Source: a virus
IMG/VR virus record: IMGVR_UViG_3300040801_002149
Location: 1 to 37,473 of that record
Reading direction: 5' to 3' (one strand)
Length of the DNA stretch: 37,473 nucleotides
The position numbers and the translations under genes are program-made. Below the pieces are notes generated by a model that saw only the letters and a program-made list of their open reading frames with translations, ran no database searches and had not been told where the DNA came from. Positions 6,827 through 34,206 of the stretch are shown here, piece by piece; the stretch's first letter is position 1; each line of letters begins with the position of its first letter.

Positions 6827-6850
6827 TGTAGGTGTTAAGGTACACCTACA
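6827..6850 (-). terminator. Terminator-like hairpin behind the capsid gene
   Basis: A perfect 9-bp stem TGTAGGTGT / ACACCTACA with a 6-base loop, 14 bp after the capsid stop. On the minus strand it is followed by CCCTCCTTTTC, a moderately T-rich tail. It probably attenuates rather than fully stops transcription, separating the abundant capsid message from the genes behind it. Confidence 0.65.
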
Positions 6851-17100: not shown

Positions 17101-17207
17101 AATATTTTATTTATAATTTTACGTATTTTTTGTTGTCTAGCTAGCCTGGCTTGCTCTTTGTGTATGAGCATATCTAACCAGGCCAATCTATAATTATCTA
17201 ATTCCAT
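17076..17207 (-). CDS. Small basic protein (43 residues), unknown
   Basis: An open frame from the ATG at 17207-17205 to a TAG at 17078-17076. The ATG overlaps the upstream gene's TAA by one base (TAATG), the same coupling used throughout this operon, and the peptide is a clean amphipathic, Arg/Lys-rich helix (MELDNYRLAWLDMLIHKEQA, then RLARQQKIRKIINKILW). It overlaps the start of the zinc-ribbon gene by 25 bp in a different frame. Without it there would be a 100-bp hole in an otherwise gap-free operon. Function unknown; a nucleic-acid-binding peptide is possible. Confidence 0.55.
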   Translation of the reverse strand: MELDNYRLAWLDMLIHKEQARLARQQKIRKIINKILWKNKKNK

Positions 17208-18644: not shown

Positions 18645-18675
18645 ACAAAAAAGCCCAACTATTTAGCTGGGCTAT
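18645..18675 (-). terminator. Intrinsic terminator behind the fibre genes
   Basis: Hairpin AGCCCA / TGGGCT (18652-18657 with 18668-18673) plus inner pairs; on the minus strand it is followed directly by TTTTTT (A-run at 18647-18652). It sits 5 bp after the stop of the 50-residue gene and isolates the fibre transcript from the small-gene cluster. Confidence 0.85.
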
Positions 18676-21317: not shown

Positions 21318-22460
21318 TTATGAAATTACTAATTCTACACCTACACCAAAAGCACCTGGATCAACATTCTTATAAACCCTATAAGGCTCAGTATGACCAT
21401 ATGCGTTAGTGTAATTAAACGTGCCTAAATCTTCAAAATTACTCAATATTGATAATACCCCACCTTGCCTAACATCTGTTAAAACACCGTGCACTGCTGC
21501 ATAAGCAATGTACGTATAATTAGTAGGGTCATTATTAAATGATGTAGCAACTACAGTACGTGCCTTCCCAGACCGTAACGCAGTGTACTGTAAATTATCA
21601 ATCAAAGACTGTATTTGCCCAGTAGTAGCACTAGATGAGTAATTATTACTTACAGCCCCAAAATAATGCCTAAATAGCCAACTAACACTAACAGACCTAT
21701 TTGGTATACTAGCTGAGTCCCCATCTAAACCAGATATAACCCAATTATAGGTAGATTGGCTAGTAGGGGTAATTATAGTGCCAGGAGTAACTGCTTGTGA
21801 AACCCCAGTAACTGAAGTATTAAACCCTTCCCCAGCTAAATACATAGACTGTGGGGGGTTACCCTCACTGTCATTACTAACAGCCCAAGTAGCTGCCCCA
21901 ATAGTAACTGCCTGCCCTACTTCATAAGTAGTAGCAGAAGGTGCCCTAACAACTGCTAAACTATTAAACCTAGGTGGTATGTATGCTTGAAGTATATTTG
22001 CAACTATATCCCTAACATCAGTACCTACTGGGTATGAGTCCCCAGTGGTTACCCCACCAACAGTAATATTAGCATTTATTTCATTTTCAATAGCGACATC
22101 CCCAGTACCAGCCAATATATCAATAATAGTACTTGAAGGACTATCAGTAATAGTAACACCTGTCCCAGTAAAATTAATAACATCACGCCGTGGTAACTCT
22201 ACCCCATCATCAGCAACAGTAATAAAACCACCACCCAATTGTGATAAAGTATAACCATAGGGATTATCACTATCTATAAAAGTTAACTGACCTGTAGCTT
22301 CAATAGAACCACTCTGTACCTTAAGTATATCTACACCATCTAACTGGTATACAAAAGTATCATGCCTAAGCCCATGGTGCCCAACATGTCCCCGTGTAAT
22401 ATACCTACTATACAAGTAGTTCTTTGACACTTCAAAGTCTGAACTACGTAGATTTCCCAT
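21318..22460 (-). CDS. Tail fibre or baseplate-attachment protein
   Basis: A 380-residue protein, first of the leftward arm. The N-terminal 60 residues ([20 protein letters not shown], then [11 protein letters not shown]) look like a virion-attachment region; the middle is a Thr/Gly/Val beta section with [17 protein letters not shown] and [20 protein letters not shown], and the C-terminal third has an Ig-like stretch followed by [20 protein letters not shown]. It resembles tail proteins that link fibre to tail. It begins 28 bp from a 16-bp palindrome in the divergent centre, and its stop is 10 bp before the large fibre gene. Confidence 0.75.
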
Positions 22461-22487
22461 AAATTCTTATTTATATTATAATATATA

Positions 22488-22503
22488 TTAATACATGTAT
22501 TAA
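22488..22503. promoter_or_regulatory. 16-bp perfect palindrome upstream of the leftward operon
   Basis: TTAATACATGTATTAA lies 28 bp in front of the first leftward ATG. On the minus strand a TATAAT (22480-22475) lies between it and the gene. It is a candidate operator or part of a leftward promoter. No Bacteroidota-type TAnnTTTG element was recognised with confidence, so promoter identity is uncertain. Confidence 0.4.
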
Positions 22504-22559
22504 CAATAACTTAACTGATACATATAAGAAAAGATAATAACACCATCCCCTCCCATGTG

Positions 22560-22795
22560 TAGTGAACCCCAAAAAGCATCTTAGCCCAGTCACCAATTGA
22601 CTGTAAGTATTCTACCTGGTCCAATAGTCCGCCGTTACTTAATTTGCACTGTGGCTAGGGAACTAAAGTTTGTTACTCTTATAGTAACTGACCAGTTTGA
22701 ACCTACCTTAAGGATTCAATAGTCTAGCTATCGTATATTCCATACTACGGTAAACTAAAACTAAGGTTGCGTTATTTAGTACTTTTTTTTAATAT
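22560..22795 (+). ncRNA. Candidate structured RNA ending in a T-tract, divergent region
   Basis: No credible gene. Perfect helices: CAGTCA-CCAAT-TGACTG (22587-22603); CTGGTC (22616-22621) with GACCAG (22690-22695), which encloses GTTACT-CTTAT-AGTAAC (22672-22688); ACTAAA with TTTAGT (22754-22780), followed by eight T at 22783-22790. The last hairpin plus T-tract is terminator-like on the plus strand. This could be a small non-coding RNA or a leader with an attenuator for the rightward genes. Strand is inferred from the T-tract. Confidence 0.45.
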
Positions 22796-23012
22796 TTTTT
22801 GTAAAACCCATATAAATACCCCCTATACCTTTATATATACAACTATCCCCCCCCCCTGTTAATACTATTAACATATATATAAACTAACACTATATATGTG
22901 GAAACGGTTATCACCCAAGAATCAACACCCCCTACTATGAGGCGGCGTCGAAGTCCCCGTACTGAAATTGTAGGGATTTCAATGTCATTTGTCTAACTTA
23001 AATTATACAGCT
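22796..23012 (+). promoter_or_regulatory. Gene-free leader with C10 run and alternative hairpins
   Basis: It holds ten consecutive C (22847-22856), hairpin GTTAAT-ACT-ATTAAC (22858-22872), a 9-bp stem ACATATATA / TATATATGT (22871-22879 with 22891-22899) that overlaps the former by two bases, and TGAAAT / ATTTCA (22963-22981). The rightward transcript should start here or just upstream. No promoter consensus is certain. Confidence 0.4.
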
Positions 23013-23168
23013 ATGTGTCGTCAACGTACTAAAGTAGTCAATGGAACAGCCTTTACTATTTGTGAGAAATGTCATAATAGTAATTGGTTTCCTACTAGGT
23101 TTATGGTCAATTACCATACAGTTAGTAGGTTAGTTTTCAAATCGCAGTATAAAGCATTAGCAGGGTAG
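23013..23168 (+). CDS. Small Cys-containing protein (51 residues)
   Basis: An open frame from ATG 23013 to TAG 23166-23168. The peptide contains C2 and a CEKCHNSNWF block at about residues 17-26, a single CxxC that could contribute to a small zinc site or a redox pair. It is basic overall. It would be the first rightward gene, behind the structured leader. No family is recognised and the frame is short, but the amino-acid composition is coherent and the gap would otherwise be 780 bp. Confidence 0.5.
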   Translation: MCRQRTKVVNGTAFTICEKCHNSNWFPTRFMVNYHTVSRLVFKSQYKALAG

Positions 23169-23208
23169 CCACCTTGCTATTTGCTAATTGTAAGCTACTT
23201 ATATAGCT
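23165..23208 (+). promoter_or_regulatory. Leader hairpins before the 81-residue gene
   Basis: GTAGC (23165-23169) can pair with GCTAC (23194-23198), and AGCTA-CTTATA-TAGCT forms a perfect hairpin at 23193-23208; the two are mutually exclusive. The element lies 31 bp before the ATG at 23240. It may be a small attenuator or translational control element. Confidence 0.3.
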
Positions 23209-23239
23209 AAGCACATACATATAACTAAATATCATCATC

Positions 23240-23485
23240 ATGGCAAAAGCATTAGTATTGTATGATGTACTACGTCATACAGCGTTACAACAACAAGGTA
23301 TTAATGTACTACCTGTTAGGTTAGTTCACATCACTGCAACTATTGTTCAAATAAAAGACACATTATTTGACAGTATTAACAACAGTGATGAGTATGTATT
23401 AATACTTGAAGAAATAACCAACAAACGTACAATACAACTCGATGAAAGGTTCAGTTTATTAAATGAATTAGTAATTGATTTGTAA
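23240..23485 (+). CDS. Hypothetical protein (81 residues)
   Basis: A small alpha/beta protein (MAKALVLYDVLRHTALQQQG, then INVLPVRLVHITATIVQI) with an acidic C-terminus. No motif, membrane segment or cysteine. The ATG is preceded by ATCATCATC, the best copy of the start-site motif seen in this arm. It is the second rightward gene and precedes the structured leader of the next gene. Function unknown; likely an early protein. Confidence 0.65.
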   Translation: MAKALVLYDVLRHTALQQQGINVLPVRLVHITATIVQIKDTLFDSINNSDEYVLILEEITNKRTIQLDERFSLLNELVIDL

Positions 23486-23490
23486 GGTTT

Positions 23491-23573
23491 AACAACTGGT
23501 AGGGGCACGTTCTTTATTTTCATTTGATAGTAGGTTAACGGTTTATACCAGCTTAATAATCCTATCAGTTGTT
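23491..23573 (+). promoter_or_regulatory. Structured 5' leader with 13-bp closing helix
   Basis: AACAACTGGTAGG (23491-23503) pairs with CCTATCAGTTGTT (23561-23573) over 13 bp with one G-U pair. The 57-base interior holds a GGT-TTAT-ACC hairpin flanked by TTAA/TTAA, and a competing GATAG/CTATC pairing that would open the outer helix. It lies 66 bp before the ATG at 23640. A regulatory RNA switch is plausible. Confidence 0.5.
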
Positions 23574-23639
23574 TTTAACTTCTATTATTTCCCACAATAC
23601 AATATACTCAAAAAATTAACTTATTTAAAGACATTTATC

Positions 23640-24161
23640 ATGGCAATAGAATTAAAAGATTATCAAGTAACTATAGTTGGCGGTGATGCCATCAAAACAG
23701 TTGCACAAACCGGGAGTGGGCCAACTGAACGTCATTATTTTCAAGCACGCCTAAGTCCTAAAAAAGCTGCAGGTCAATTAGGGGGTTTATCCAATCCTTA
23801 TCCATTAAACATATGGGACCACATGCACAGTGAATTATTCCAAGGCATTACTGAAGTACTAGCAGATGAAGCTAATTACCTGGAAATAAAACAAGCTGAT
23901 CAATCAGTTAACAAAGTGATTAAATCAGCCACTATCAAGGCTATTATCATCCGCGAAAAAGTACCACAATACTATCGCTTCAGGTACAACAAAACAACTA
24001 AAAAATGGGAACAATTATTTAATGCCCAAAAAGAACCAATAATCAGCAACGAAATTCGTTATCTTGTTGATGAAGAAAGTTCATTAACCGAAGACGGTTT
24101 TGAATTAGCACGTCAAAATGAAATTGACAATATCAACAAAAACATGAAATGGGTTGTTTAA
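23640..24161 (+). CDS. Unknown early protein, possible single-strand DNA-binding type
   Basis: A 173-residue alpha/beta protein (IELKDYQVTIVGGDAIKTVA; PYPLNIWDHMHSELFQGITE; KVPQYYRFRYNKTTKKWEQL). The frame stops at TAA 24159-24161, but the same frame then continues NDNKVDEEES before a second TAA at 24192-24194. That is a typical acidic C-terminal tail of phage single-strand DNA-binding proteins, so the tail may be lost by a nonsense mutation or reached by read-through. The body has strand-rich, aromatic segments compatible with an OB fold, but no family match can be claimed. It is followed by a strong terminator, so it may be an abundant transcript. Confidence 0.65.
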   Translation: MAIELKDYQVTIVGGDAIKTVAQTGSGPTERHYFQARLSPKKAAGQLGGLSNPYPLNIWDHMHSELFQGITEVLADEANYLEIKQADQSVNKVIKSATIKAIIIREKVPQYYRFRYNKTTKKWEQLFNAQKEPIISNEIRYLVDEESSLTEDGFELARQNEIDNINKNMKWVV

Positions 24162-24220
24162 AATGACAACAAAGTTGATGAAGAAGAAAGTTAATCGTTG
24201 TATAGTTTAGTTAGTTAAGT

Positions 24221-24266
24221 TAGGGGTCATTACGCACAGTATAGTGCGTAATTGCCCCTTTCTTTA
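24221..24266 (+). terminator. Strong intrinsic terminator
   Basis: Stem ATTACGCAC / GTGCGTAAT (9 bp, loop AGTATA), extended past a 2-by-2 internal loop by GGGG / CCCC, then TTTCTTT. It ends the transcript of the 23640-24161 gene. Confidence 0.9.
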
Positions 24267-24319
24267 AATGTATAACGTTAATTTTTTAACCTTTTTATAT
24301 TAATCTTGAAACATACAAT

Positions 24320-24451
24320 ATGGCAGGTTTAGCAATTGTATTAGCATTTTTTATTATTATGGCTATAAAATGGCCTGGTAATAATGTGGACTTTAAATCC
24401 ATACGTGAAGATAATGAGCGTTTAGCTGAAATTGATAAGGAACAAATATAA
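24320..24451 (+). CDS. Small single-span membrane protein (43 residues)
   Basis: An open frame from ATG 24320 to TAA 24449-24451. The first 17 residues form a membrane segment (MAGLAIVLAFFIIMAIKWPG) followed by a short charged tail (EDNERLAEIDKEQI). It lies behind the terminator and so needs its own promoter. Small single-span proteins of this kind in phages are often holin-like or inhibitors of membrane complexes, but no function can be assigned. Confidence 0.5.
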   Translation: MAGLAIVLAFFIIMAIKWPGNNVDFKSIREDNERLAEIDKEQI

Positions 24452-24590
24452 GTATTCAAAAATCTTATTCAATTATGCATAGGTTTTCTTAACACTATCC
24501 AATATTGAATGAAATTTTTAATATAATAACCAACAAATCAAATAAACAGCTTTGAAACTATTCTACGTAATAGGTATAAGTAATACTCAA

Positions 24591-24712
24591 ACAGTTAGCT
24601 ACTGTATGTTTAGGAGATTGGTGATAAATAAACGGCTTGCGGTATGAACTGACCGCATAGTAAACAGTTCAAAATTACACACAAGGTTAATCGCGGTTTG
24701 TTTATACCGTTT
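24591..24712 (+). promoter_or_regulatory. Structured 5' leader with H-type pseudoknot
   Basis: Hairpin ACAGT-TAGCT-ACTGT (24591-24605). Then AAACGG (24630-24635) with CCGTTT (24707-24712) closes a domain that contains stem 1 TGCGGT / ACCGCA (24638-24643 with 24652-24657) and stem 2 GAACTG / CAGTTC (24646-24651 with 24665-24670). Stem 2 uses the loop of stem 1, with a 2-base and a 7-base connecting loop: a textbook H-type pseudoknot geometry. It ends 21 bp before the ATG at 24734. Confidence 0.55.
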
Positions 24713-24733
24713 GTTAGCCACTTTTATAGAGCG

Positions 24734-25018
24734 ATGGATATATTAAGCGATAAAATAGTAAAGACACGAAAAAAGCATAATTGCAGTGCGTGTGGGAGGG
24801 TATTTGATAAAGGAACTATGATGCGAACCCAAGTAAACACATACGATGGAATTGGAACATGGAGAGAATGCCCAACTTGTAATGTATTACTAAGTAAATA
24901 CCGTTCGCATTTTGAAGATGACTATGACCATAGGTGTTACGGTGACTGTGTAAGTGAAGTATTGGAGCGAGGGCAAACACCCGAAGAGCTACTAAGTGCG
25001 TTGGCTAATTGTGGCTAA
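24734..25018 (+). CDS. Phage zinc-finger protein
   Basis: A 94-residue protein from the ATG at 24734; a TTG at 24698 would lengthen it into the structured leader and is rejected. KTRKKHNCSACGRVFDKGTM at about residues 9-28 and ECPTCNVLL at about 45-53 give a four-cysteine zinc site, a common pattern of small phage zinc proteins in which a (K/R)K-x-H-x-C-x-x-C start is followed by a G-x-x-W-x-C-x-x-C. The C-terminal part has two further cysteines and a helix (CVSEVLERGQTPEELLSALA). Role unknown, probably nucleic-acid or protein binding in early infection. Its expression may be controlled by the pseudoknot leader. Confidence 0.75.
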   Translation: MDILSDKIVKTRKKHNCSACGRVFDKGTMMRTQVNTYDGIGTWRECPTCNVLLSKYRSHFEDDYDHRCYGDCVSEVLERGQTPEELLSALANCG

Positions 25019-25048
25019 CTAGGGAATATGGGTAATAAAACAAAACTT

Positions 25049-25090
25049 AATGATGTTTACCTATTTATCATTCCAGCTTTAGCAAGTTGG
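25049..25090 (+). promoter_or_regulatory. Two hairpins in front of the tRNA-like element
   Basis: AATGAT / ATCATT (25049-25054 with 25067-25072) and CCAGCTT-TAGC-AAGTTGG (25073-25090, one G-U pair) lie back to back after the stop of the zinc-finger gene. No T-tract follows, so they are not typical terminators; they may be part of one folded RNA with the tRNA-like element behind. Confidence 0.4.
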
Positions 25091-25107
25091 TGTTGATTAT
25101 TTTAAAT

Positions 25108-25165
25108 AGCTATAATGGTTGTCTCTGAAATAATAGGAGATTAAGGTTCGATTCCTTTAATAGCT
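25108..25165 (+). other. tRNA-like element without D arm (relic or mimic)
   Basis: AGCTAT (25108-25113) pairs with ATAGCT (25160-25165) like an acceptor stem. TCTCT / GGAGA encloses a 9-base loop where an anticodon arm would be. The T-arm is clear: TTAAGG-TTCGATT-CCTTTAA with the canonical GGTTCGATTCC core. Only about 7 bases replace the D arm, and the anticodon-like loop lacks a normal 7-base U33 layout, so it is not a functional standard tRNA. It lies in the leader of the 56-residue gene. Confidence 0.45.
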
Positions 25166-25206
25166 TCTAATGTGAAATATAATCTTAACCATTAATATTC
25201 GTAAAT

Positions 25207-25377
25207 ATGCAAAAATCAATTGAGCGTTTTAAAACATTATCAACAAAACGTACTGGTTCTTTACAAGGTGAAGAATTAAGATTTAATCCTTTACAGTACA
25301 ACCGTAAAAAAGGCTTGACTAAAGCTGAAAGAGTTGAAAGACAGATACGTGTTAAACTTATACACTCTATACTCTAA
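25207..25377 (+). CDS. Small basic protein (56 residues)
   Basis: An open frame from ATG 25207 to TAA 25375-25377, and the last A is shared with the ATG of the next gene (TAATG), a strong sign that it is real. The peptide is very basic (MQKSIERFKTLSTKRTGSLQ, later NRKKGLTKAERVERQIRVKL) with a helical C-terminal half. It may bind nucleic acid. No family recognised. Confidence 0.6.
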   Translation: MQKSIERFKTLSTKRTGSLQGEELRFNPLQYNRKKGLTKAERVERQIRVKLIHSIL

Positions 25378-25571
25378 TGATCTCACCTATATTTAATCGG
25401 CTACAGTTTAGTGATATGCATGAAAATATTCGTATATCATATAAACTACATGAATTTGGCTTTGGACTAGAGTGGTTAGCTACTCAAACTAGTCAACAGG
25501 CTAATTTATTAGAAACATATGCTAGATTATTTTGGCTAAGGGAATTAGAAAGGAGTGTATGCCCAAACTAA
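25377..25571 (+). CDS. Hypothetical protein (64 residues)
   Basis: A small helical protein (MISPIFNRLQFSDMHENIRI; WLATQTSQQANLLETYARLF) translated by coupling from the 56-residue gene. It has one Cys and several Trp/Phe. A short amphipathic design suggests a protein-binding role, but nothing can be assigned. It precedes the 51-residue gene by 6 bp. Confidence 0.6.
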   Translation: MISPIFNRLQFSDMHENIRISYKLHEFGFGLEWLATQTSQQANLLETYARLFWLRELERSVCPN

Positions 25572-25577
25572 ATTATT

Positions 25578-25733
25578 ATGCTAAAAATTAAACTTGTTAG
25601 GCATTTAAATGGTAAATATGAGTTTATACGTACAAGGGTTGAGACTGATGGCACTGAAACAGTGTTATCATATTCTTTAGGTTCACCACCACCAAGTGGT
25701 ATAGTTTTTAAAAATATTAAAGTTTGTAGGTAA
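25578..25733 (+). CDS. Hypothetical protein (51 residues)
   Basis: An open frame from ATG 25578 to TAA 25731-25733, in a tight series (6 bp after the previous stop, 2 bp before the next ATG). The sequence is beta-rich and basic (MLKIKLVRHLNGKYEFIRTR; SYSLGSPPPSGIVFKNIKVC). No motif recognised. The spacing supports it being a gene. Confidence 0.55.
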   Translation: MLKIKLVRHLNGKYEFIRTRVETDGTETVLSYSLGSPPPSGIVFKNIKVCR

Positions 25734-25735
25734 AA

Positions 25736-25834
25736 ATGAATATTTCGGAGAAACACATCGGTAAAATTTTAACGGCTATTGTATTAGGTATTATGGTTGT
25801 TATATTAACATTTGTATTATTATGCAATCCGTAA
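25736..25834 (+). CDS. Tiny membrane peptide (32 residues)
   Basis: An open frame from ATG 25736 to TAA 25832-25834, overlapping the next ATG (25822) by 13 bp. After a short polar start (MNISEKHIGK) it is a single hydrophobic span (ILTAIVLGIMVVILTFVLLC). It could be a small holin-like or regulator peptide paired with the membrane protein encoded next. Short length keeps confidence low, although spacing and composition fit a gene. Confidence 0.45.
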   Translation: MNISEKHIGKILTAIVLGIMVVILTFVLLCNP

Positions 25835-26157
25835 AAGATATTATGTTAGCAGAAGATGCTATATTTTTTAGCATTGCTTTAATACTCATGTTATTTATCT
25901 TAATACGTTATAGATATAATGTTATTAAAGATAAGCAAGTAACTAAAAGGCGTAGAATGAAAGAAATTCAACTACGAGTCTCACACCTACAACTAGGTGA
26001 CTTCATGTATGATCGTCATAATGCAGGTACTATTGTGTATGAATATCCACATACAACACCTCAACATCGTAAATTTATAATTAAGGATTTACTAGGTCAT
26101 GAAAAATGTGTTAAATTACATAATGATGACTTTGTAATTGTTTCTTATAATAAATAA
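25822..26157 (+). CDS. Single-span membrane protein with cytoplasmic beta domain
   Basis: A 111-residue protein: one membrane segment at about residues 13-29 (AIFFSIALILMLFILIRYRY), a very basic linker (KDKQVTKRRRMKEIQLRVSH) and a C-terminal strand-rich domain (LGDFMYDRHNAGTIVYEYPH, KLHNDDFVIVSYNK) that would lie in the cytoplasm by the positive-inside rule. It is co-transcribed with four very small genes. Function unknown. Confidence 0.65.
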   Translation: MQSVKDIMLAEDAIFFSIALILMLFILIRYRYNVIKDKQVTKRRRMKEIQLRVSHLQLGDFMYDRHNAGTIVYEYPHTTPQHRKFIIKDLLGHEKCVKLHNDDFVIVSYNK

Positions 26158-26163
26158 TTACTT

Positions 26164-26376
26164 ATGACAGAATTTATTTTATTAAGTCGTAAACAAAAAC
26201 CTCGTGTAAATATTTCTACAAATGCTGATTTAACTGTAGTAACTAATATACTTAGTGAACTAAAAGAATCAAGTAAAGTATTTCCTGGGTTGTACAATAT
26301 TATGTTATCAAAAATTGCTATTAAAAAGAAATTTAAGCAAAAAGGGTACAATATACAGATAACAAAATTAAGATAA
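26164..26376 (+). CDS. Small basic protein (70 residues)
   Basis: A helical, Lys/Arg-rich protein (MTEFILLSRKQKPRVNISTN; IMLSKIAIKKKFKQKGYNIQ) 6 bp behind the membrane protein gene. The opposite strand is also open here, but the plus-strand frame fits the operon direction and spacing. No family recognised; nucleic-acid binding is possible given the charge. Confidence 0.55.
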   Translation: MTEFILLSRKQKPRVNISTNADLTVVTNILSELKESSKVFPGLYNIMLSKIAIKKKFKQKGYNIQITKLR

Positions 26377-26395
26377 ATGTTTACGATGATGGTAT

Positions 26396-26432
26396 ATAAG
26401 TAGTGAAAAGCTTATGCTTAGTAGCTACTTAT
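26396..26432 (+). promoter_or_regulatory. Leader stem-loop before the 124-residue gene
   Basis: ATAAGTAG (26396-26403) pairs perfectly with CTACTTAT (26425-26432), and AAGC-TTAT-GCTT forms an inner hairpin (26408-26419). It lies 22 bp upstream of the ATG at 26455. No T-tract follows, so a 5' leader element is more likely than a terminator. Confidence 0.45.
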
Positions 26433-26454
26433 TAACTTTTAAACTATTATCAAA

Positions 26455-26829
26455 ATGGTAACACTTAGTGAATTTAAAAAATCAAGGGGCATTAATGAAG
26501 ATGTATCACAAACTATTGACCAAGCTTTATTCTTAGAATTTTTAAGATTTCATAACTTAACTTCAGACTTTATGTCTGAGTTTTATGCTTATAATTTATT
26601 CAAAGGTAAACCAATTAGTTTTTTGTTTAAATTTGTAAGTAGTAAAGATTTTATTGCAAATGCTTTTGAGTGGCGCGATACAAAACAAGGTTGTGATTTT
26701 TGGGCTGATAAATCCCCTCGTTGGTTTAAGTATTACATGGATGAAATGTATTTATGTTGCCCAGAATGTTTAACTAGTTATACTCTTTTATCACATCTTG
26801 AATGTCCAATTTGTAATCAAAACAAATAA
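26455..26829 (+). CDS. Zinc-ribbon protein (C-terminal), unknown
   Basis: A 124-residue protein. The N-terminal 85 residues are helical and aromatic (EFLRFHNLTSDFMSEFYAYN; KFVSSKDFIANAFEWRDTKQ). The C-terminus carries CCPEC at about 100-104 and CPIC at about 118-121, a compact four-cysteine zinc ribbon. It has its own structured leader with a TATCAAA start motif. It may be an early transcription or protein-interaction factor; this is inferred. Confidence 0.65.
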   Translation: MVTLSEFKKSRGINEDVSQTIDQALFLEFLRFHNLTSDFMSEFYAYNLFKGKPISFLFKFVSSKDFIANAFEWRDTKQGCDFWADKSPRWFKYYMDEMYLCCPECLTSYTLLSHLECPICNQNK

Positions 26830-26831
26830 TC

Positions 26832-27140
26832 ATGGCTAAAAATAATAAACGTCCAGCACGTCGTAAACTAAATTCTGGAAAGAATGAACGGAAATATTTT
26901 TTCTATCAAGCTACATTACCATCAAAAGTAGCTGATGCATTTTCATTACCACATAATTATCCATTTATAGAATGCTATGGCACTAAACCACCTAATCATG
27001 TTAGGTGTGAGGTTGTTATTGCAAAATCACCTAGTAGTGCTCGTGCTCAGATGGATAGTAAAGTGAGGAAACGGATACAACAACAATTGGGGTTGCATTC
27101 CTCAGTACCTGTTAAGTTATTTCATAATGTAAATCCGTAA
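26832..27140 (+). CDS. Basic hypothetical protein (102 residues)
   Basis: A protein with a highly basic N-terminus (MAKNNKRPARRKLNSGKNER) followed by an alpha/beta core (YFFYQATLPSKVADAF, HVRCEVVIAKSPSSARAQMD) and a helix KVRKRIQQQLG. It is 2 bp behind the zinc-ribbon gene. The basic tail suggests nucleic-acid or ribosome contact. No family recognised. Confidence 0.6.
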   Translation: MAKNNKRPARRKLNSGKNERKYFFYQATLPSKVADAFSLPHNYPFIECYGTKPPNHVRCEVVIAKSPSSARAQMDSKVRKRIQQQLGLHSSVPVKLFHNVNP

Positions 27141-27158
27141 GCTTATGTTAAATAACTC

Positions 27159-27234
27159 AATGAATAGTAGTATTTTATAGGCTCCATAGAGAAATAAAGT
27201 ATAAGTTAAGTTTGTCCTTAACCTACTATTCATT
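27159..27234 (+). promoter_or_regulatory. Three-way-junction 5' leader (riboswitch-like)
   Basis: The closing helix AATGAATAGTAG / CTACTATTCATT is a perfect 12 bp (27159-27170 with 27223-27234). Inside, GTTAAG-TTTGTC-CTTAAC (27205-27222) stacks directly on it, and TTTAT / ATAAA (27174-27178 with 27194-27198) plus CTC-CATA-GAG (27182-27191) forms the other arm. It ends 16 bp before the ATG at 27251. The architecture is that of a three-way-junction riboswitch or cis-regulatory RNA, but no known class is recognised. Confidence 0.6.
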
Positions 27235-27250
27235 ACTAAATTTACACAAT

Positions 27251-27799
27251 ATGGAAGAAAAAAGATATTATGCAATAACAAATAAGGAAGTGTTTATTAA
27301 GCATTGTGATATACTTATTCAAAAGTATGTATTTGAGCATGGAAAAAAAGAAATGATAAGAATAATATCGTGCCCACTTTGTAAATATCATACAAAAGAC
27401 ACTGCAGTATATTCTCTTAGGTGTGGTAATTGCCCATTTAACATTTTATCTGGATATTTTGGATGTTTCGATCATAAATCGTTTGAACAAGTTCTTCAAT
27501 TGAATTATGACTTTCCAAGACATATCTTTTGGTTAGTAGCTAGAGAATATGCAATAAACACAATGTCTAAGAAGAGATTTTGTAAACCATTATCATTACA
27601 AGCTTCAAACTGGAGATGGTTAAATGAGCTAGATAAAATAGTCATGAGTCACTTTAGTAACATGACAAATGAAAATTTTCTTAAGACTGGGTATATATAC
27701 CCCAATGAACCTAGAAATAGTTATATGGAAAGAAGACACAATATTACTAGGTACATTTACTGTCAACTTATGGGGTTTGATTCATACAAACAATCATAG
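27251..27799 (+). CDS. Hypothetical protein with four-cysteine zinc site
   Basis: A 182-residue protein from the ATG at 27251; a TTG at 27212 would place the N-terminus inside the structured leader and is rejected. CPLCKYHT at about 45-52 and CGNCPFN at about 66-72 form a zinc ribbon, and GCFDHKS follows. The C-terminal half is helical, with Trp- and Tyr-rich segments (QASNWRWLNELDKIVMSHFS). The three-way-junction leader lies directly before it, so this is the gene to test for RNA-based control. Function unknown. Confidence 0.65.
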   Translation: MEEKRYYAITNKEVFIKHCDILIQKYVFEHGKKEMIRIISCPLCKYHTKDTAVYSLRCGNCPFNILSGYFGCFDHKSFEQVLQLNYDFPRHIFWLVAREYAINTMSKKRFCKPLSLQASNWRWLNELDKIVMSHFSNMTNENFLKTGYIYPNEPRNSYMERRHNITRYIYCQLMGFDSYKQS

Positions 27800-27823
27800 T
27801 GTTAAACTTATACATCATCAAAT

Positions 27824-28420
27824 ATGTTTAAATCTATCAAAGAATGGTGGCAACGTATAAAATTACGTCGTGCCAAACGTAAACAATTAGGAGAAAGGTA
27901 TCGTATTGGTACTATTATTAAAGCACAACCTGTTATCTTTACAGGAGGAAAGTCTATCTTTTCTAATCATAAAACTCGTCAACGTGCTGTAACTATTCTA
28001 GGGAAAAAAAGACTTCAAGATAGTGAAGACCCTACTAAAGCTTCTATCATGATACACAGAGGTTATTGGAAAGAAGTTAGTAAAAATGACTTATCAGAGT
28101 TTTATATTGTAGATGCTGATTCTGCAGAAATTTACATGTTGGCTCCTCATAGTTATATAGCAAATTTCCAGGAAGGAATGGTTTTGGAATTTTATATCAC
28201 AAACAAAGGTTATGCTAGTATTTTACCACAAACAAGACTTAAAATTAAAGTATCTGGGTATAAAAGAGAAAAAAAAGCTTTAGAAGAAATTATCGAAAAT
28301 CATTTCAGTAATTTTGAAGACTTAAAACAGTATGACCAACCGTTGGTTTTTACTAAAAAAAGTTATAATAAATCAACATCTAAAGTTCCCGGTTATAAGT
28401 TGATAATTCCCAAAAAATAA
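27824..28420 (+). CDS. Hypothetical protein (198 residues), basic
   Basis: A basic alpha/beta protein. The N-terminus is a strongly positive helix (MFKSIKEWWQRIKLRRAKRK) that could bind membrane surface or nucleic acid; the rest alternates strands and helices (EFYIVDADSAEIYMLAPHSY; MVLEFYITNKGYASILPQTR) and ends in a basic tail. The ATG is preceded by ACATCATCAAAT. No family recognised. Confidence 0.65.
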   Translation: MFKSIKEWWQRIKLRRAKRKQLGERYRIGTIIKAQPVIFTGGKSIFSNHKTRQRAVTILGKKRLQDSEDPTKASIMIHRGYWKEVSKNDLSEFYIVDADSAEIYMLAPHSYIANFQEGMVLEFYITNKGYASILPQTRLKIKVSGYKREKKALEEIIENHFSNFEDLKQYDQPLVFTKKSYNKSTSKVPGYKLIIPKK

Positions 28421-28459
28421 TATTTCCCATTAATATTATGATTTATAGTGGTTTTACTA

Positions 28460-28475
28460 GTATTTAATTAAATAC
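28460..28475. promoter_or_regulatory. 16-bp perfect palindrome before the 611-residue gene
   Basis: GTATTTAATTAAATAC lies 10 bp before the ATG at 28485. It overlaps the ATCATCA start motif region and may be an operator or promoter element. Its AT-only core makes chance more likely than for the helices elsewhere. Confidence 0.35.
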
Positions 28476-28484
28476 ATCATCAAA

Positions 28485-30320
28485 ATGTCTGAAAATACAA
28501 GTAAACAAACTATTGGTGCTGCAACAGCACAAGTCCCTTCGGGAATCAACACCGTATCAGATATTAAAGATGCTCTCAATCTACTAGATGAGTTAAAGAA
28601 TAAAAATACCCACGTACAAGGGAGTTTATTCAGTGACAAATCTACTAAAATTGATGGCTTCTTTAATTATGATGAAAAAAAGATATTATTATATAGTATC
28701 TTTGAACAAATGATTAATGATGCTGCTAAAAGCTTTGGTGTCTCTCCGCACAGCTTAATTTTCGATAAACCGGAAATACAGCCCATTAGTCAAGTAGTGG
28801 ATAAAAATGGTAATGTTGTTCGTGATTCTTTAAAAGAGCATACAATTGTTACTGCCGATGAAGTATCCACTCCTGATTTTACACAAGGTAACATTACTAA
28901 ACCTTCTAATACAGAAGAGGGTAAAACTATTACTTTACCTAGGACTAAAGAAGCACAGCAAAAGCAACAAACTATTGAAGCTAAAGAAAAAGCTATGAAA
29001 TTTGATGGCGAAGCTTTAACTAATTCTATTAAGAATATCAATGATTTGATTGTTACTATCTATGATTCTTTAGATAATGGTACTGCTGACGATGTAGCTG
29101 TTGTACGTCGTGTAGCAATTGCTTTACTTAGTAAAGTAGTTAATGATAAACCTTATCTTGAAGGTAATGGTACAATTACTAGTGTAGAAGATGCCGAAAA
29201 ATGGTATAATGGTATAGCTGAAGCAAGAACTAAATCTAACCAACAAAAGTTAGAATTAACTAGCCTAAATGGTGAAGAAGTTAAGCAAATAACTGATTTA
29301 GTTTCTAAAGGAGAAATTGATGAAGCTAAGCAATTAGTTCGTTATTTAATCAAAACTGCAGGTGTAGACCATAAATCTGCTAATGCAACTTTGGAAAAGA
29401 TTCTTGCAGAGCACACACCAAAAGTTAGTACTGAAATAGATACCAGTTTTCAATTTCCAGCTTCTGATATTGAGTTAATTAATAAAAGTTTTAAATCAGG
29501 AGGAGCACAAGATGCCATTAAAACTGCTAAGTATTGTGCTAAAAAACTTAATTTTGATAATACTATAGTCATTCGTCGACGTGTTTTGGATATTATCAAA
29601 GAAGCAAATCCTAAAGTAAAGACTTCAGCTACTAAAGAAGATATTACAGCAATTAAAGCTCAAATATCTGAATTAGTTAAAACTAAAGGAATTGAAGAAA
29701 CTGAAAAATTTGCTGAAGAAGCACTGACAAAAGCAGGTTGGGCAGCGAAAAATATTAAAAATTATTTATCGCATGTATTTGCTAAGCTGGTATCTTCTAA
29801 TGAAAAGGAAGAAAATATTACCAGTGAAAAAGAAATAGCTGAAAATGTAGCAATTTCGCAAATTACTTCAATGACTGAATATCAACTTAAAGAACATACC
29901 GTAAAGTTACTAAGAGAAAACTTGCTTAATGAAGCGATTTCTGATGTAACTGTTTATGGTAGAAAAAAAGGTTGGGATGACAACGATACTCAGCTTTTCA
30001 TTGAAGAATGTAAAAGTAAAGTATTTCCTTCAGACTCAGAAACGAAAAATTGGAATGAGAAAAAAGTACGTGATTGGAACGTGCTTTGGGAGAATCAGTT
30101 AAAATTGAAAAAGTCGGAAGCGCTTACTAAACAACTAAGTAATCCCAAAACAAGCCAAACAAAAATGAAACGTGCTTTAGGAGAATTACTTAAAGTTGAA
30201 AAAGACCAAGATAAGGTTTTTAACGTAGTGTGGAAACACTATGAGAAAAAATCTGATTGGAATGAGAAAAAAGTACGTGATTGGATTAAACAAGTTCAAT
30301 CAAACGTTAAAACTGCGTAA
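28485..30320 (+). CDS. Large helical, Lys/Glu-rich protein, unknown
   Basis: A 611-residue protein, the largest of the right arm. It is almost wholly helical and charged: an N-terminal low-complexity part, then repeats of helical pairs (EVKQITDLVSKGEIDEAKQL, ISELVKTKGIEETEKFAEEA, EHTVKLLRENLLNEAISDVT) that look like TPR- or recX-like helical hairpins. Near the end, WNEKKVRDW occurs twice (residues about 523-531 and 592-600), encoded by an identical 30-base repeat. No enzyme motif, membrane segment or cysteine cluster is seen. A strong terminator follows, so it should be an abundant monocistronic product, possibly a host-protein or nucleic-acid scaffold. The function is unknown. Confidence 0.75.
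   Translation: MSENTSKQTIGAATAQVPSGINTVSDIKDALNLLDELKNKNTHVQGSLFSDKSTKIDGFFNYDEKKILLYSIFEQMINDAAKSFGVSPHSLIFDKPEIQPISQVVDKNGNVVRDSLKEHTIVTADEVSTPDFTQGNITKPSNTEEGKTITLPRTKEAQQKQQTIEAKEKAMKFDGEALTNSIKNINDLIVTIYDSLDNGTADDVAVVRRVAIALLSKVVNDKPYLEGNGTITSVEDAEKWYNGIAEARTKSNQQKLELTSLNGEEVKQITDLVSKGEIDEAKQLVRYLIKTAGVDHKSANATLEKILAEHTPKVSTEIDTSFQFPASDIELINKSFKSGGAQDAIKTAKYCAKKLNFDNTIVIRRRVLDIIKEANPKVKTSATKEDITAIKAQISELVKTKGIEETEKFAEEALTKAGWAAKNIKNYLSHVFAKLVSSNEKEENITSEKEIAENVAISQITSMTEYQLKEHTVKLLRENLLNEAISDVTVYGRKKGWDDNDTQLFIEECKSKVFPSDSETKNWNEKKVRDWNVLWENQLKLKKSEALTKQLSNPKTSQTKMKRALGELLKVEKDQDKVFNVVWKHYEKKSDWNEKKVRDWIKQVQSNVKTA
30049..30078 (+). repeat. Direct repeat copy 1 (30 bp) inside the 611-residue gene
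   Basis: Identical to 30256-30285, 207 bp apart and in the same reading frame, encoding WNEKKVRDW. The perfect DNA identity indicates a recent duplication or strong exchange between the copies. Confidence 0.85.
30256..30285 (+). repeat. Direct repeat copy 2 (30 bp) inside the 611-residue gene
   Basis: Second copy of the 30049-30078 repeat, near the C-terminus of the same protein. Recombination between the two would delete 207 bp (69 codons) in frame. Confidence 0.85.
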
Positions 30321-30326
30321 ACAAAT

Positions 30327-30349
30327 GGGGGTAATATTGCCCCCTTTTT
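30327..30349 (+). terminator. Intrinsic terminator behind the 611-residue gene
   Basis: GGGGG / CCCCC stem (30327-30331 with 30340-30344), loop TAATATTG, followed by TTTTT, 7 bp after the stop codon. Confidence 0.9.
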
Positions 30350-30444
30350 ACAAAACAATAAAGTTAATATGAAAATTATTATGTATTTAATAAGTTGCGT
30401 ATCCTTCTTGTTATAATATATATAATTTAACCTTACTATATTTC

Positions 30445-30482
30445 TTATTCTTTCGAGAATGACCAACGGTAGTAGGCTACTA
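30445..30482 (+). promoter_or_regulatory. Leader with UUCG hairpin and second inverted repeat
   Basis: TTATTCT-TTCG-AGAATGA (30445-30462, with one G-U pair) carries the extra-stable UUCG tetraloop. TAGTA-GGC-TACTA (30470-30482) follows. The element lies 43 bp before the ATG at 30526, in the 205-bp gap after the terminator where the next promoter must also be. Confidence 0.45.
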
Positions 30483-30525
30483 GGTATAGTATAACATATT
30501 AACTTTACTTTAAAACATTACCATC

Positions 30526-31065
30526 ATGTCAAAATTATCACAACAAGTTAAAAATGAATTTGATGCATTAGATAGGATACTACTATATTCTAGGCATCTT
30601 ATTAAGCTTAAAGCTGCTAAGTTAAATCTTAGAATAGCTCAGTTTATAATGAATCGAACTACTAGTATTATTATTACTAACCGGGGATATTTAAAAAATA
30701 TTCTTACAGAAGTAGATATTAAGATTAAAGACATTGAACTTAAAATGGCTTTGCTTATTCGTCCCTACTTTTTACAGGCCAATTTAAAAGTACCAGAGAA
30801 TTTTCATGTAACAGAAGAAGAAATTTCAAAAGGTTATGTGGAAATTCACGAAACTCTCAATAATTTACTAATAGAATATATTTTATTTTTAAGAACAATT
30901 GATTTGGGGGATGAAATCATCTTTAAAAGAGGAGAAATACGTGAAAAAGCAAGTATTAAATCTCTACTTAAAGATATTCCAGAAGAAGATAGTAAAGTAG
31001 GTGTTGAAGGTAGATTACTTAAACACTTATACGCTAGCTTTAAGGATTTAAAAACAACTATTTAA
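30526..31065 (+). CDS. Helical hypothetical protein (179 residues)
   Basis: An all-helical protein (QQVKNEFDALDRILLYSRHL; SIIITNRGYLKNILTEVDIK; YVEIHETLNNLLIEYILFLR). It has no cysteine, signal peptide or membrane segment. It heads a three-gene unit with the 120-residue protein and the ANL-like protein. The leader carries stable hairpins. No family recognised; a helical partner or regulator of the following genes is conceivable. Confidence 0.65.
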   Translation: MSKLSQQVKNEFDALDRILLYSRHLIKLKAAKLNLRIAQFIMNRTTSIIITNRGYLKNILTEVDIKIKDIELKMALLIRPYFLQANLKVPENFHVTEEEISKGYVEIHETLNNLLIEYILFLRTIDLGDEIIFKRGEIREKASIKSLLKDIPEEDSKVGVEGRLLKHLYASFKDLKTTI

Positions 31066-31097
31066 CAAGACTCAAAGTTTAATTAATACATAGCGCT

Positions 31098-31460
31098 ATG
31101 GAAAATAATAAATTAAATCAGTTTAAAGCACTGATTGAGAGTCTTTTGATTAATAGGCAAAACACATTTCGTAACAGTCATAATTTCGTTGAATTGGTTA
31201 TTCAATCAAGATTTATGGCTTTGTATAGTGAATTATGCTTTCATTTAGATAATTACTATAACAAGGATAATGTTACAATTGAAATTTTAGGAGAATTCGA
31301 TGAAATTGAGATTAGCTTGAAGTATCATTCTTATGCAGATCATGCTCGTCAAATAGTAATCGAAATACCCAGAACTGCTACTTATATTCGTATAAATAGA
31401 GTTGTTGATGGATTACGTGCTAAAATTACTGAAGAACCTATTAAATCAAAATTCGTATGA
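31098..31460 (+). CDS. Hypothetical protein (120 residues) coupled to the ANL-like gene
   Basis: A small alpha/beta protein: an N-terminal helical half (NQFKALIESLLINRQNTFRN, FMALYSELCFHLDNYYNKDN) and a C-terminal beta section (VTIEILGEFDEIEISLKYHS, QIVIEIPRTATYIRINRVVD). The stop TGA overlaps the ATG of the ANL-like gene (ATGA), so translation of both is coupled, a hint that the two products work together. No family recognised; it does not look like an acyl-carrier protein, since no D-S-L motif is present. Confidence 0.65.
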   Translation: MENNKLNQFKALIESLLINRQNTFRNSHNFVELVIQSRFMALYSELCFHLDNYYNKDNVTIEILGEFDEIEISLKYHSYADHARQIVIEIPRTATYIRINRVVDGLRAKITEEPIKSKFV

Positions 31461-32857
31461 TCAATCATTTGGCTTATATGCTTAATAACAAGTTATTTGA
31501 GAATAGTACAGTATCAAACAATATTAGGAAATTACAAAGTGTTTTAATGGAATATGATACTGAAACAAATCTCAATAACAAAGTACTATTACTTGGAAAA
31601 GACCCACAATCTTTTACAGCTAGTTTCTTAGCTTTATTAGAAATGGGTTTTGAAGTACATTTAGTACATCCTGATACCAATCGAACAGAATTGCAACGCA
31701 TATTAATTATTGAAGATATCTCTATTGGGATAGTTGATTCTAATCTCCCAATCATGGACGATACACAATTTATGCGTACAATGTTAGGTTTAGGTATCTA
31801 TATGCAAGATAGTACTGTATTTCACTCAGAATTGGATTTAAGGCCCTTTACAGAACGTTTAAGACGTAAAGACATAAGTTACTATGTAGTACACCACGTA
31901 GGGGTAGAAAATCCAGCAGAGAGCTCTAAAATAGCTTATAGAGACATAACCAATATTATCAATGGACTAAGAGAGTCTCAATTAGCAAATACTAAATCTT
32001 GGTTAGTAGGAGTGGATATATACAAATTTCCTGTATTATTTATTTTCTATCCAATTTTAGAAGGTAAGAAAGTTGATTTTTTTGATGCTCACGCTTCATC
32101 TACTAACTTAGTGGTTAAAATTAAAAAAAATCCATTAAGTCAAATTTGGATTGATGCAAAGAGTTTCATGAGTATGTGGGATAAATACTTTTCTAGTTTT
32201 TCTTCAAAGATTGTACAAAATTTATTAGGATACAAAATTACAAAGTTTTTTATTAAGCTTTGGTTAAAAACTAGGTTGGACACAATTCTAGGGGAACCTG
32301 AAGAAGTTATTATTTTAGCTTCTTCTATTCCTCTTTGGATTGAAAAACTACTTATAGAAATTAACTTCCCCATTACCATTACTTATGGTGCTACTGAATT
32401 TGGAAGTATAGTAACCTATAGTCATCCTATTGAAAGAATAGAGGGGACCGTAGGTAAAATATTACCAGATGGATTACAACTTGACAAAGATGTATTAATA
32501 CCCTATAAGGGACAAGTTAAATTTTTAGGTAGAACTAATAATTTAATTAATCCTAATAGTCATCTAACATTAGATATGTTAGAAAATATACTATCTGAAT
32601 TAAGTATTGTTAAAGAGGCACTTGCAGTAAAAAATGGAAATAAAATTCGTATTTTTGTATTACCATCTATTGATCATTTAGTACTGTACAGAATGAGTTT
32701 AAAACAATTTAAACAATTTCTGATACATTTACTAAATTACATGAAAAAGGAGTATTATTTAGATAATATAGTTATAGATAATATTATTATCTACACACAA
32801 TCATTTAGTAAAACACCTAATTCTACCATCAAAAGATGGATGTATAAATGGAAGTAA
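31457..32857 (+). CDS. Degenerate acyl-CoA synthetase-like (ANL superfamily) protein
   Basis: A 466-residue protein. NNKVLLLGKDPQSFTASFLA LLEMGFEVHLVHP at about 41-72 follows the ANL N-terminal pattern. IILASSIPLWIEKLLIEINF at about 285-304 matches the S/G-G-A-P-L-x-x-E region, and YGATE (310-314) is the A5 motif, followed by EGTVGKILPDG (329-339). LGRTNNLINPNS at 357-368 is A8-like, and KTPNSTIKRW (452-461) is the A10 segment. Two key parts are altered: the Ser/Thr/Gly P-loop is replaced by VVHHVGVENPAESSK (144-158), and the A10 catalytic Lys is Thr. Typical relatives have 550-650 residues. It may be a pseudo-enzyme or a lipid/CoA-binding effector, or an altered adenylase. The structured-RNA region starts directly behind it. 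Confidence 0.7.
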   Translation: MINHLAYMLNNKLFENSTVSNNIRKLQSVLMEYDTETNLNNKVLLLGKDPQSFTASFLALLEMGFEVHLVHPDTNRTELQRILIIEDISIGIVDSNLPIMDDTQFMRTMLGLGIYMQDSTVFHSELDLRPFTERLRRKDISYYVVHHVGVENPAESSKIAYRDITNIINGLRESQLANTKSWLVGVDIYKFPVLFIFYPILEGKKVDFFDAHASSTNLVVKIKKNPLSQIWIDAKSFMSMWDKYFSSFSSKIVQNLLGYKITKFFIKLWLKTRLDTILGEPEEVIILASSIPLWIEKLLIEINFPITITYGATEFGSIVTYSHPIERIEGTVGKILPDGLQLDKDVLIPYKGQVKFLGRTNNLINPNSHLTLDMLENILSELSIVKEALAVKNGNKIRIFVLPSIDHLVLYRMSLKQFKQFLIHLLNYMKKEYYLDNIVIDNIIIYTQSFSKTPNSTIKRWMYKWK

Positions 32858-32910
32858 AGAACTCTCCAATATAATAACATATTGATTATTAGTAATTCGT
32901 AAAATTTAAA

Positions 32911-33664
32911 TTAGGAAAGCTGTCCTCAATGAAGGAGGAATTAGTTGTACTAAGCTAATAATTGCCGCCTAATTGGAGGCGGGTAAGTATACATGAAAGG
33001 GTACACAAACTAGTATTTGCTTGTCACATGACAACTTATAATAGCCCTAGTGTTGACAAAGCACTTGGTTATATGGGTGTTAGTAGGTCGTCAGGAGGTA
33101 GGGTCAACCTAGTCCACAGAATGTATATGTTAATGAAAATATCCAAACGGTAGGCTCGTTGATTAATGTCAACAGTTATGACTAAGAAGTACTAGTTGCT
33201 ATTCTTAGCAAGCAGTTTCAATACTGAAGGAATTCAGTTAAAATCCTACGCTAAAGACTTCTTAGGACGGTAGCCAGCACTTCAACATTTTAGTTATGTG
33301 GTACTTCACATTAGTAAGAAACGCTGTCGTCTAATGTTTTAGTTAATTGTGAACACGGTTTGTCGTTTTTCAAATTTTTCAGATATACGATTCAGAAGTG
33401 CTTGGGGTGAAATCCAAGACAAGTAGCAATATAACTAACAAAATTCCTCTAGTAAAAGTACTTACTACCAGCAAGAAGAATGGCTGGAGTTTCAGATAAT
33501 GAGCAACGGGAAATTACTCAAAGGCTGAGACAATTATTAGGGTCAAATCTAATAAACAAAGAAAGTCCAAACTTAGTATACCGGACGTTATTGTGGGTAA
33601 CTATACATGTGAAGGCGACTAAGAGTTAGCATGTAGAAAGGTGTTCGTTAGGGATTACACCTTT
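32911..33664 (+). ncRNA. Candidate large structured non-coding RNA, domain A
   Basis: No credible gene; GC is higher than in the neighbouring genes. Helices in order: TCCTC/GAGGA (32923-32939), ATTAG/CTAAT (32940-32959), CCGCCT/AGGCGG (32965-32982), TTGTC-ACAT-GACAA (33021-33034), CTAG(T)GTTGAC/GTCAACCTAG (33047-33057 with 33103-33112), CTAAGAAGT/ACTTCTTAG (33182-33190 with 33257-33265) enclosing TTGCTA-TTCT-TAGCAA and ACTGAA-GGAA-TTCAGT, ACATTAG/CTAATGT (33308-33337), CTTGG/CCAAG (33401-33418), CCAGC/GCTGG (33468-33487), TTATTAG/CTAATAA (33534-33555), TACATG/CATGTA (33604-33635), AAAGGTGT/ACACCTTT (33637-33664). Large ornate phage RNAs such as GOLLD and ROOL are known; whether this is one cannot be told by eye. 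Confidence 0.65.
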
Positions 33665-33710
33665 TAGTTAAAATAAAAAAAGACCTTATACCAAGTTAGT
33701 AATTTTCTTA

Positions 33711-34060
33711 AATTACATTGTATTGTAGCCACTCAATACACCATTTTCATAAATGTACAAGGATAAGTAAGGTTAATTACCTAGAGGTGCTGAAAATATG
33801 TCTCCAAAGCATATTTAAAAACTTATCTATATTATGCACTTACACAAGTAAATACTTGTTAATCACAATTTTGAACTAATGTAGAATGGGATTTAAGTAT
33901 GGATACTTAAGTCTGCGTACGACATTTTTAAATCGGCGAGTTATCCAAGGTAGTGCAAAGGAACCTAATTGACTTATATTGGCAACATATATAAGTTCTT
34001 TCTATACTCTGCGGACGTAGATACGGTAAATTAGGTGTCATTAAGTTGACTTCGTAGGTT
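33711..34060 (+). ncRNA. Candidate structured non-coding RNA, domain B
   Basis: Helices: TGTATTG/CAATACA (33719-33740); a three-way junction closed by GATAAGT/ACTTATC (33762-33768 with 33821-33827) and holding AGGT/ACCT (33770-33782) and AAATATG/CATATTT (33794-33816); ACAAGT-AAAT-ACTTGT (33844-33859); ATTTAAGTA-TGGA-TACTTAAGT (33891-33912); CTGCGTACG with CGGACGTAG (33913-33921 with 34012-34020, one mismatch, one G-U) enclosing ACTTATAT/ATATAAGT (33972-33996); and GTAGG-TTGGAAT-CCTAT (34053-34069), which resembles a tRNA T-arm. It may be a continuation of domain A or a second RNA. The rest up to 34206 shows nothing firm. Confidence 0.55.
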
Positions 34061-34206
34061 GGAATCCTATACTCATCATCAACAGGATTTAAAATGTGAA
34101 GTTGTGTACAATTACAAGGAATTTACAAATATTTCTAAATTTGACTTAGTTGAAGGTAAACCTTGATCCCATATTTTTCCTTTATTTTATACTTAACATT
34201 AATTTT

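Follow-up and report, generated by a model that had tools for sequence, protein, structure and literature searches.

Structured gaps between the early genes of a crAss-like phage: candidate gene ends and start signals

What do the structured gaps between the early genes of a crAss-like phage contain? We have analysed a stretch of viral DNA of 37,473 bases (IMG/VR virus record IMGVR_UViG_3300040801_002149), hereafter the window, whose early genes are set apart by noncoding gaps. An earlier note on this DNA had proposed that seven early genes each carry their own structured leader, which would point to post-transcriptional control gene by gene, perhaps through a common RNA-binding protein or RNase, and that the left arm shows none of this. 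From our results, we consider that the gaps may instead consist of gene ends and start signals, not of one regulatory leader per gene, and we give this reading about an even chance. On this reading, the early arm would be a chain of separately spaced units, and most of each gap would belong to the 3' end of the gene before it, with the start signal of the next gene behind. The 3' part would be of two types, either a compact intrinsic terminator (24217-24264 and 30327-30349) or a longer stem whose large loop is often branched (23491-23573, 24456-24525 and 27159-27234, and probably 24635-24712 and 30359-30507). We infer that transcription stops at these stems and/or that they give the transcript a stable 3' end. 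In the start part, the expression of each gene would be set by a short AT-rich element whose distance from the ATG is fixed. This element would be either a promoter whose transcripts have only a very short leader, or a signal for translation starts in a Bacteroidota-type mRNA that lacks Shine-Dalgarno sites.

On its gene matches, the window is a piece of a crAss-like phage whose nearest named relatives are Suoliviridae/Uncouvirinae. Phages of this kind are very abundant in the human gut. The terminase, portal and major head protein of the window match crAss-like families (phrog_6681, phrog_6547 and phrog_11589), and the window has the divergent early and late arms of a Suoliviridae-like phage of the Crassvirales. 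The terminase of cr118_1 (Suoliviridae, Uncouvirinae) shows 60.6% identity to that of the window, and the left, structural (late) arm is collinear with cr118_1. For the right, early arm, the closest relative found was IMG/VR contig 3300033004_000001 (G005), which is syntenic with the window. They have in common an AMP-binding-like gene (pairwise E 4e-18), a weakly matching gene two places before it (E 0.008) and a noncoding block behind it. The genes of G005 and G002 are mechanical open reading frames (ORFs) made in this analysis, and G007 and G001, which cover no comparable early arm, were left out.

In terms of organisation, the contrast between the two arms lies mostly in the number of gaps, not in how well the gaps fold. 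Gaps of at least 30 nt number 13 among the 23 early genes of the window and 4 among the 25 late genes, and the noncoding share of the early vs the late arm is 20% vs 2.5% in the window, 37% vs 5.6% in cr118_1 and 24% vs 10.5% in cr114_1. To this extent the proposed gene-by-gene organisation is borne out, in that the early units are spaced, most of their gaps hold RNA-like structures, and the pattern recurs in relatives (20-37% noncoding early vs 2.5-10% late). The left arm indeed has far fewer gaps, but these also hold terminator-like stems (2938-2954, 6827-6850 and 18652-18673), and the fold z-scores per gap do not differ between the arms (34 early and 22 late gaps of the window, cr118_1 and cr114_1; p = 0.63). 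Per gap, this is the outcome that the earlier note itself had named as refuting its proposal, yet the excess over shuffles is real in both arms. Long stems beat all 20 shuffles in 35 of 98 early gaps (4.7 expected) and in 10 of 36 late gaps (1.7 expected), and did so in 6 of 98 coding controls.

Five of the seven proposed leaders do hold significant structure (those before 23640, 24734, 26455, 27251 and 30526), but those before 23240 and 25207 hold none. The z-scores of whole gaps were determined on the coding strand, with 150 dinucleotide shuffles as the reference, and the borders of sub-elements were picked after viewing the fold, so that their z values are somewhat flattering. The structures and start elements of the early arm of the window described here are on the plus strand. 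As whole gaps, four of the seven fold better than shuffles, namely those before 24734 (z -3.1, with two elements, 24452-24530 at about -5 and 24625-24725 at -3.1), 26455 (z -4.0), 27251 (z -3.2, with the sub-element 27155-27235 at about -4) and 30526 (z -4.8, with a terminator at 30327-30344 and the element 30359-30507). The gap before 23640 does so as a sub-element only (whole gap, z -1.6; 23486-23580, z -3.5). No significant structure was found in the gap before 23240 (23169-23239, z -1.0) or, as a whole gap, in that before 25207 (z -0.4), which contains a tRNA-like piece. The best-folding gap, 24162-24319 before ORF 24320, was missing from the earlier list; it reaches z -7.2 and has a terminator-like hairpin inside.

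In terms of position, the structures give no support to the idea of 5' leaders that regulate the gene behind them. The region from -40 to +20 around early starts is not above shuffles in structure (mean z +0.12, n = 231), and late starts are alike (+0.16). Several stems lie 4-23 nt past a stop codon instead, with T-rich sequence after them. In the window, the element 23491-23573 begins 5 nt past the stop of 23240-23485 and the element 27159-27234 begins 18 nt past that of 26832-27140. A terminator-like stem at 24456-24525 (AAAAATcTTATTCAAT..ATTGAATgAAATTTTT; z about -5) lies directly past ORF 24320-24451, and 30327-30349 is also close behind a stop codon. In G005, 7 of the 11 listed elements start 4-23 nt past a stop. 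The T fraction 3' of significant early stems is 0.50, against a background of 0.34.

Two features of the window show the GC-rich stem, short loop, T run and location after a gene that characterise a compact intrinsic terminator. These are the strong hairpin 24217-24264 of gene 23640-24161 (GGGGTCATTACGCAC..GTGCGTAATTGCCCC TTTCTTT; z about -7) and the hairpin 30327-30349 of gene 28485-30320 (GGGGGTAATATTGCCCCC TTTTT). The site 3' of this large early gene can be matched in G005 by the neighbouring genes; in place of the classic terminator of the window, it there carries a stem of 10 bp, with a branched loop of 35 nt, and then TTTTTT.

The stems also carry the signature of RNA on the sense strand. 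In a stem search that scored G-U pairs and A-C mismatches alike, the significant early stems contained 53 G-U pairs vs 29 A-C mismatches (p = 0.011), and those of the window and G005 contained 17 vs 6 (p = 0.035). The non-significant stems contained 46 vs 55. In late stems, the bias is the same as in the significant early ones (16 vs 5). Such a bias is expected if selection acts on pairing in the sense transcript.

Large-loop stems (score at least 22, loop at least 30 nt) occur in 12 of the 28 early gaps of the window and G005, where about one is expected. Nine of these 12 have a loop of 50-62 nt (21% expected; p = 8e-5, for a range picked after inspection and uncorrected), and the elements of both phages have stems of 10-14 bp, mostly closing 50-62 nt. 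In the window, 23491-23573 has 14 bp (2 G-U) closing 55 nt and a T-rich 3' side (z -3.5), and 27159-27234 has a perfect stem of 12 bp closing 52 nt with two inner hairpins (z about -4). The element 24635-24712 has 11 bp closing 50 nt and ends about 23 nt upstream of ATG 24734. The perfect 13 bp stem of 30359-30507 closes 123 nt with three inner hairpins, and its 3' arm holds the TATTAAC box of gene 30526 (z -4.8). The large-loop interiors of the window and G005 showed no common sequence motif above shuffles in the early gaps and matched no Rfam family. That the elements agree in shape but not in sequence speaks for termination or cutting of the RNase III type, and against a sequence-specific protein, a riboswitch or a known ribozyme. 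As for the common factor of the earlier note, a protein that reads sequence would find no primary sequence in common, but the stems are compatible with an RNase of the RNase III type, which would recognise shape only.

The sole feature common to the early gaps is a start element immediately upstream of the genes, which was absent from the earlier note. Among 124 gap-preceded early genes, TATTAAC was found at 26 (2.2 in shuffles) and TTATCAAA at 22 (1.0 in shuffles), vs 1 and 0, respectively, of 57 late genes. The element has the layout TATTAAC..TTATCAAA-ATG, with TATTAAC near -25 (TTAAC peaks at -25 to -22) and TTATCAAA near -9. When a model was trained without the window, 4 of the 23 early starts of the window exceeded the shuffle cut-off, where 0.35 would be expected, and no late start (0 of 25) did so. 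The best early copy in the window is 26430-26457 (TATTAACTTTTAAACTATTATCAAA-ATG). Further copies are 30497-30528 before gene 30526 (TATTAACTTTACTTTAAAACATTACCATC-ATG), a variant at 28456-28487 before ATG 28485 (ATTTAATTAAATACATCATCAAA-ATG), which exceeds the 1% threshold, and a partial match read from the sequence at 23616-23639 before ATG 23640 (ATTAAC..TTATC).

When 2.9 million viral contigs were scanned blind with TTAACNNNTAAANATTATCAAAATG, seven matches were obtained, each with an ATG that starts an ORF (109-487 aa). Three of the contigs have full crAss-like terminases, two have a 487 aa gene and two are from other phages. The same query gave two matches in bacterial and archaeal genomes (257 billion bases), both in Bacteroidota, one of which starts a 127 aa ORF. 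The start element may be a promoter or a translation signal, and gene-by-gene control more likely lies in this element than in the stems. If it is a promoter, the stems would be wholly outside the downstream mRNA. As a separate observation on the start-element contigs, the terminases of G009, G012 and G013 contain 4, 8 and 18 in-frame TAG codons, respectively, like the TAG-recoded late genes of crAss-like phages.

Several observations weigh against reading the gaps as gene ends followed by a start signal. The elements 24635-24712 and 30359-30507 are closer to the downstream start, and when gaps were compared in slices of 60 nt, their 3' sides did not significantly exceed their 5' sides in structure (p = 0.39). 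Accordingly, the stop-proximal placement of the stems is a tendency only. Known intrinsic terminators typically have short loops. The window stems resemble them in lying directly past genes, several with T-rich sequence behind them, and 24217-24264 and 30327-30349 are good fits, but the other elements have branched interiors of 30-123 nt (mostly 50-62 nt) and T runs that are often weak. A real T run (at least 5 T in 8 nt) follows only 7 of 19 early large-loop stems (mean T 0.49 vs 0.34), and 27159-27234 is without one. In addition, TATTAAC is barely enriched in G005, which has another heptamer, CCACTAA, at -17 to -20 instead. This heptamer occurs 13 times on the early strand of G005 (L026+L027) and once on the opposite strand (2.6 expected in shuffles), and five early starts have it between -9 and -20 (0.15 expected). 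It is possibly a start signal specific to G005, as if the start signal were lineage-specific.

The same gaps could also be processing sites, in which long early RNAs are cut between genes at stems recognised by shape only, RNase III-like as in phage T7. The early genes of T7 have RNase III sites between them, which are stems on the coding strand without a strict sequence consensus and need no T runs. The stems of the window are alike in lying between early genes on the coding strand, with 10-14 bp, the G-U bias and no common sequence. Self-cleaving ribozymes could do the same job, and they fill the same kind of gap in gut relatives. Of the 67 early gaps of at least 100 nt in seven gut phages, 30 hold a tRNA, tmRNA, RAGATH RNA or Hatchet ribozyme, and 18 hold a ribozyme or RAGATH RNA. 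On the other hand, the window elements match neither Hatchet nor RAGATH nor any other Rfam family at gathering or loose thresholds, and no known ribozyme was found in the window even at loose thresholds. Cutting needs no T-rich tails, but several window gaps have terminator-like T runs, and the compact terminators 24217-24264 and 30327-30349 indicate that some gaps end transcripts. We hold processing to be possible but rather unlikely.

The model of 5' leaders that regulate each early gene via a common RNA-binding protein agrees with the structures upstream of most early genes. It also agrees with the folds of 26377-26454 and 30353-30525, in which the start element is partly paired, so that occlusion is possible for these two genes; a two-tier stem at 26385-26451 (z about -4), upstream of ATG 26455, overlaps the start element. 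However, the elements have no common sequence, the starts are unstructured, two of the seven named leaders have no structure, and late-arm gaps are similarly structured per gap, which makes this model very improbable. The gaps might finally hold ordinary content, with terminators here and there, the remnant of a tRNA and AT-rich spacer, and no system would span the arm. Per-gap folding that equals that of the late arm, two stems that are plain terminators, and the tRNAs, tmRNA and other RNA genes in the gaps of relatives would all suit this explanation. It accounts poorly for the number of large-loop stems and their recurring loop size, and for a start element far over chance, and we regard it as improbable.

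In terms of known RNA families, no Rfam RNA was found in the window at the gathering threshold. A loose search of 22400-31100 gave a weak tRNA and two chance-level matches, and relaxed ARAGORN gave noise only. The tRNA-like element, 25091-25166, has the T-arm GGTTCGATTCC and part of the acceptor pairing without a normal D arm. It is not a full tRNA (23.3 bits vs the Rfam cut-off of 29; no ARAGORN gene), and it fits the RNA-filled early gaps of relatives. Across the 124 early genes, the T-loop word GTTCGA stands immediately upstream of 13 (0.5 expected). In cr10_1, T-loop hairpins without a full tRNA, such as AATGTTAGGGGTTCGACTCCCCTAACATT, are located directly before early genes (L020, upstream of 24121 and 30112). 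The early gaps of gut Suoliviridae (L016, L018, L019, L020, L021 and L022) contain Hatchet ribozymes, RAGATH-7, -9, -14 and -20, and permuted tmRNA.

About ten crAss-like phages, one Steigviridae member included, carry a 48-nt noncoding element, CTCAATAACTTCCCAAGACATTGAGGGCACCAGTTTCTTATA (L016:25752-25804, minus strand; L014:12768-12815, minus strand), with a second conserved piece downstream. It is 100% identical in cr114_1, cr118_1 and cr53_1 and nearly whole in cr60_1 and cr109_1, has no Rfam match, and is not in the window. In crAss001, a 0.9 kb noncoding gap lies by an early gene with a TROVE domain (Ro-like), and a tRNA match there is stretched over 144 nt, as if with a large insert (L028:36454-36597, minus strand). 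It is conceivable that the TROVE protein has a Y-RNA-like partner here. A similarity between 27203-27220 of the window and 25243-25260 of cr114_1 was discarded as probable chance.

Elsewhere in the early arm, 32858-34206 is a stretch of about 1.35 kb with no credible ORF and weak local folding (mean z about -1). Related phages have 1.5-2.2 kb of noncoding sequence that is not in Rfam at a similar position, with 70-88% identity among cr113_1, cr60_1 and cr53_1 and 78.5% between cr114_1 and cr115_1. No sequence homology was found between the window block and those of the relatives. The gene before the block, 31457-32857 (plus strand), encodes a divergent protein like AMP-binding (ANL) enzymes, and the resemblance is clearer in the G005 homologue (E 2.7e-7). 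In the searched IMG/VR and named phages, no close early-arm relative was found for 31457-32857, 23640-24161 or 35764-37011, and the G005 homologue as the query likewise gave none. A gut gene of 460-491 aa was considered as an orthologue of 31457-32857 and dropped, as alignment and pairwise comparison did not support it, and profile comparison gave no support for a match to 28485-30320 either. The 487 aa gene next to the start element in two contigs has an N-terminal composition like that of this gut gene, as judged by eye. In the late arm, 17101-17206 (minus strand) forms a strong hairpin (z -4.2 to -4.9) that probably lies within a small ORF, 17076-17207, and the portal gene 9566-12904 (minus strand) has an intein carrying homing endonuclease domains.

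The hairpin promoters of the phage N4 virion RNA polymerase are small and sequence-specific. Like N4, crAss-like phages inject a virion RNA polymerase that transcribes the early genes, and transcription of crAss001 proceeds in early, middle and late phases (PMC10136315, PMC8375218). The window stems are unlike the N4 promoters in having 10-14 bp, large loops and no common sequence, and the common part is the AT-rich start element. A more specific form of our reading, which we consider doubtful, is a two-part module. Its lineage-specific start element would be read by the phage's own virion RNA polymerase or sigma factor, so that the mRNAs would be near-leaderless, and each transcript would be ended or cut at an RNA element defined by shape and not by sequence (10-14 bp stem, interior of about 50-62 nt). 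The searched literature, which covered little subscription literature, described neither such a module nor any crAss-like promoter, polymerase recognition sequence or inter-gene RNA element.

In summary, we consider that the early-arm gaps of this phage may combine the end of one gene with the start signal of the next. As possible terminators or processing sites, the large-loop stems are unusual in the size of their loops, and this can be tested. Since the two phages have no detectable nucleotide similarity in these places, the common shape of the stems suggests that selection acts on the shape of the RNA. The start element, which recurs across several genera at a fixed distance from early ATGs, provides a concrete candidate for testing recognition by the virion RNA polymerase.

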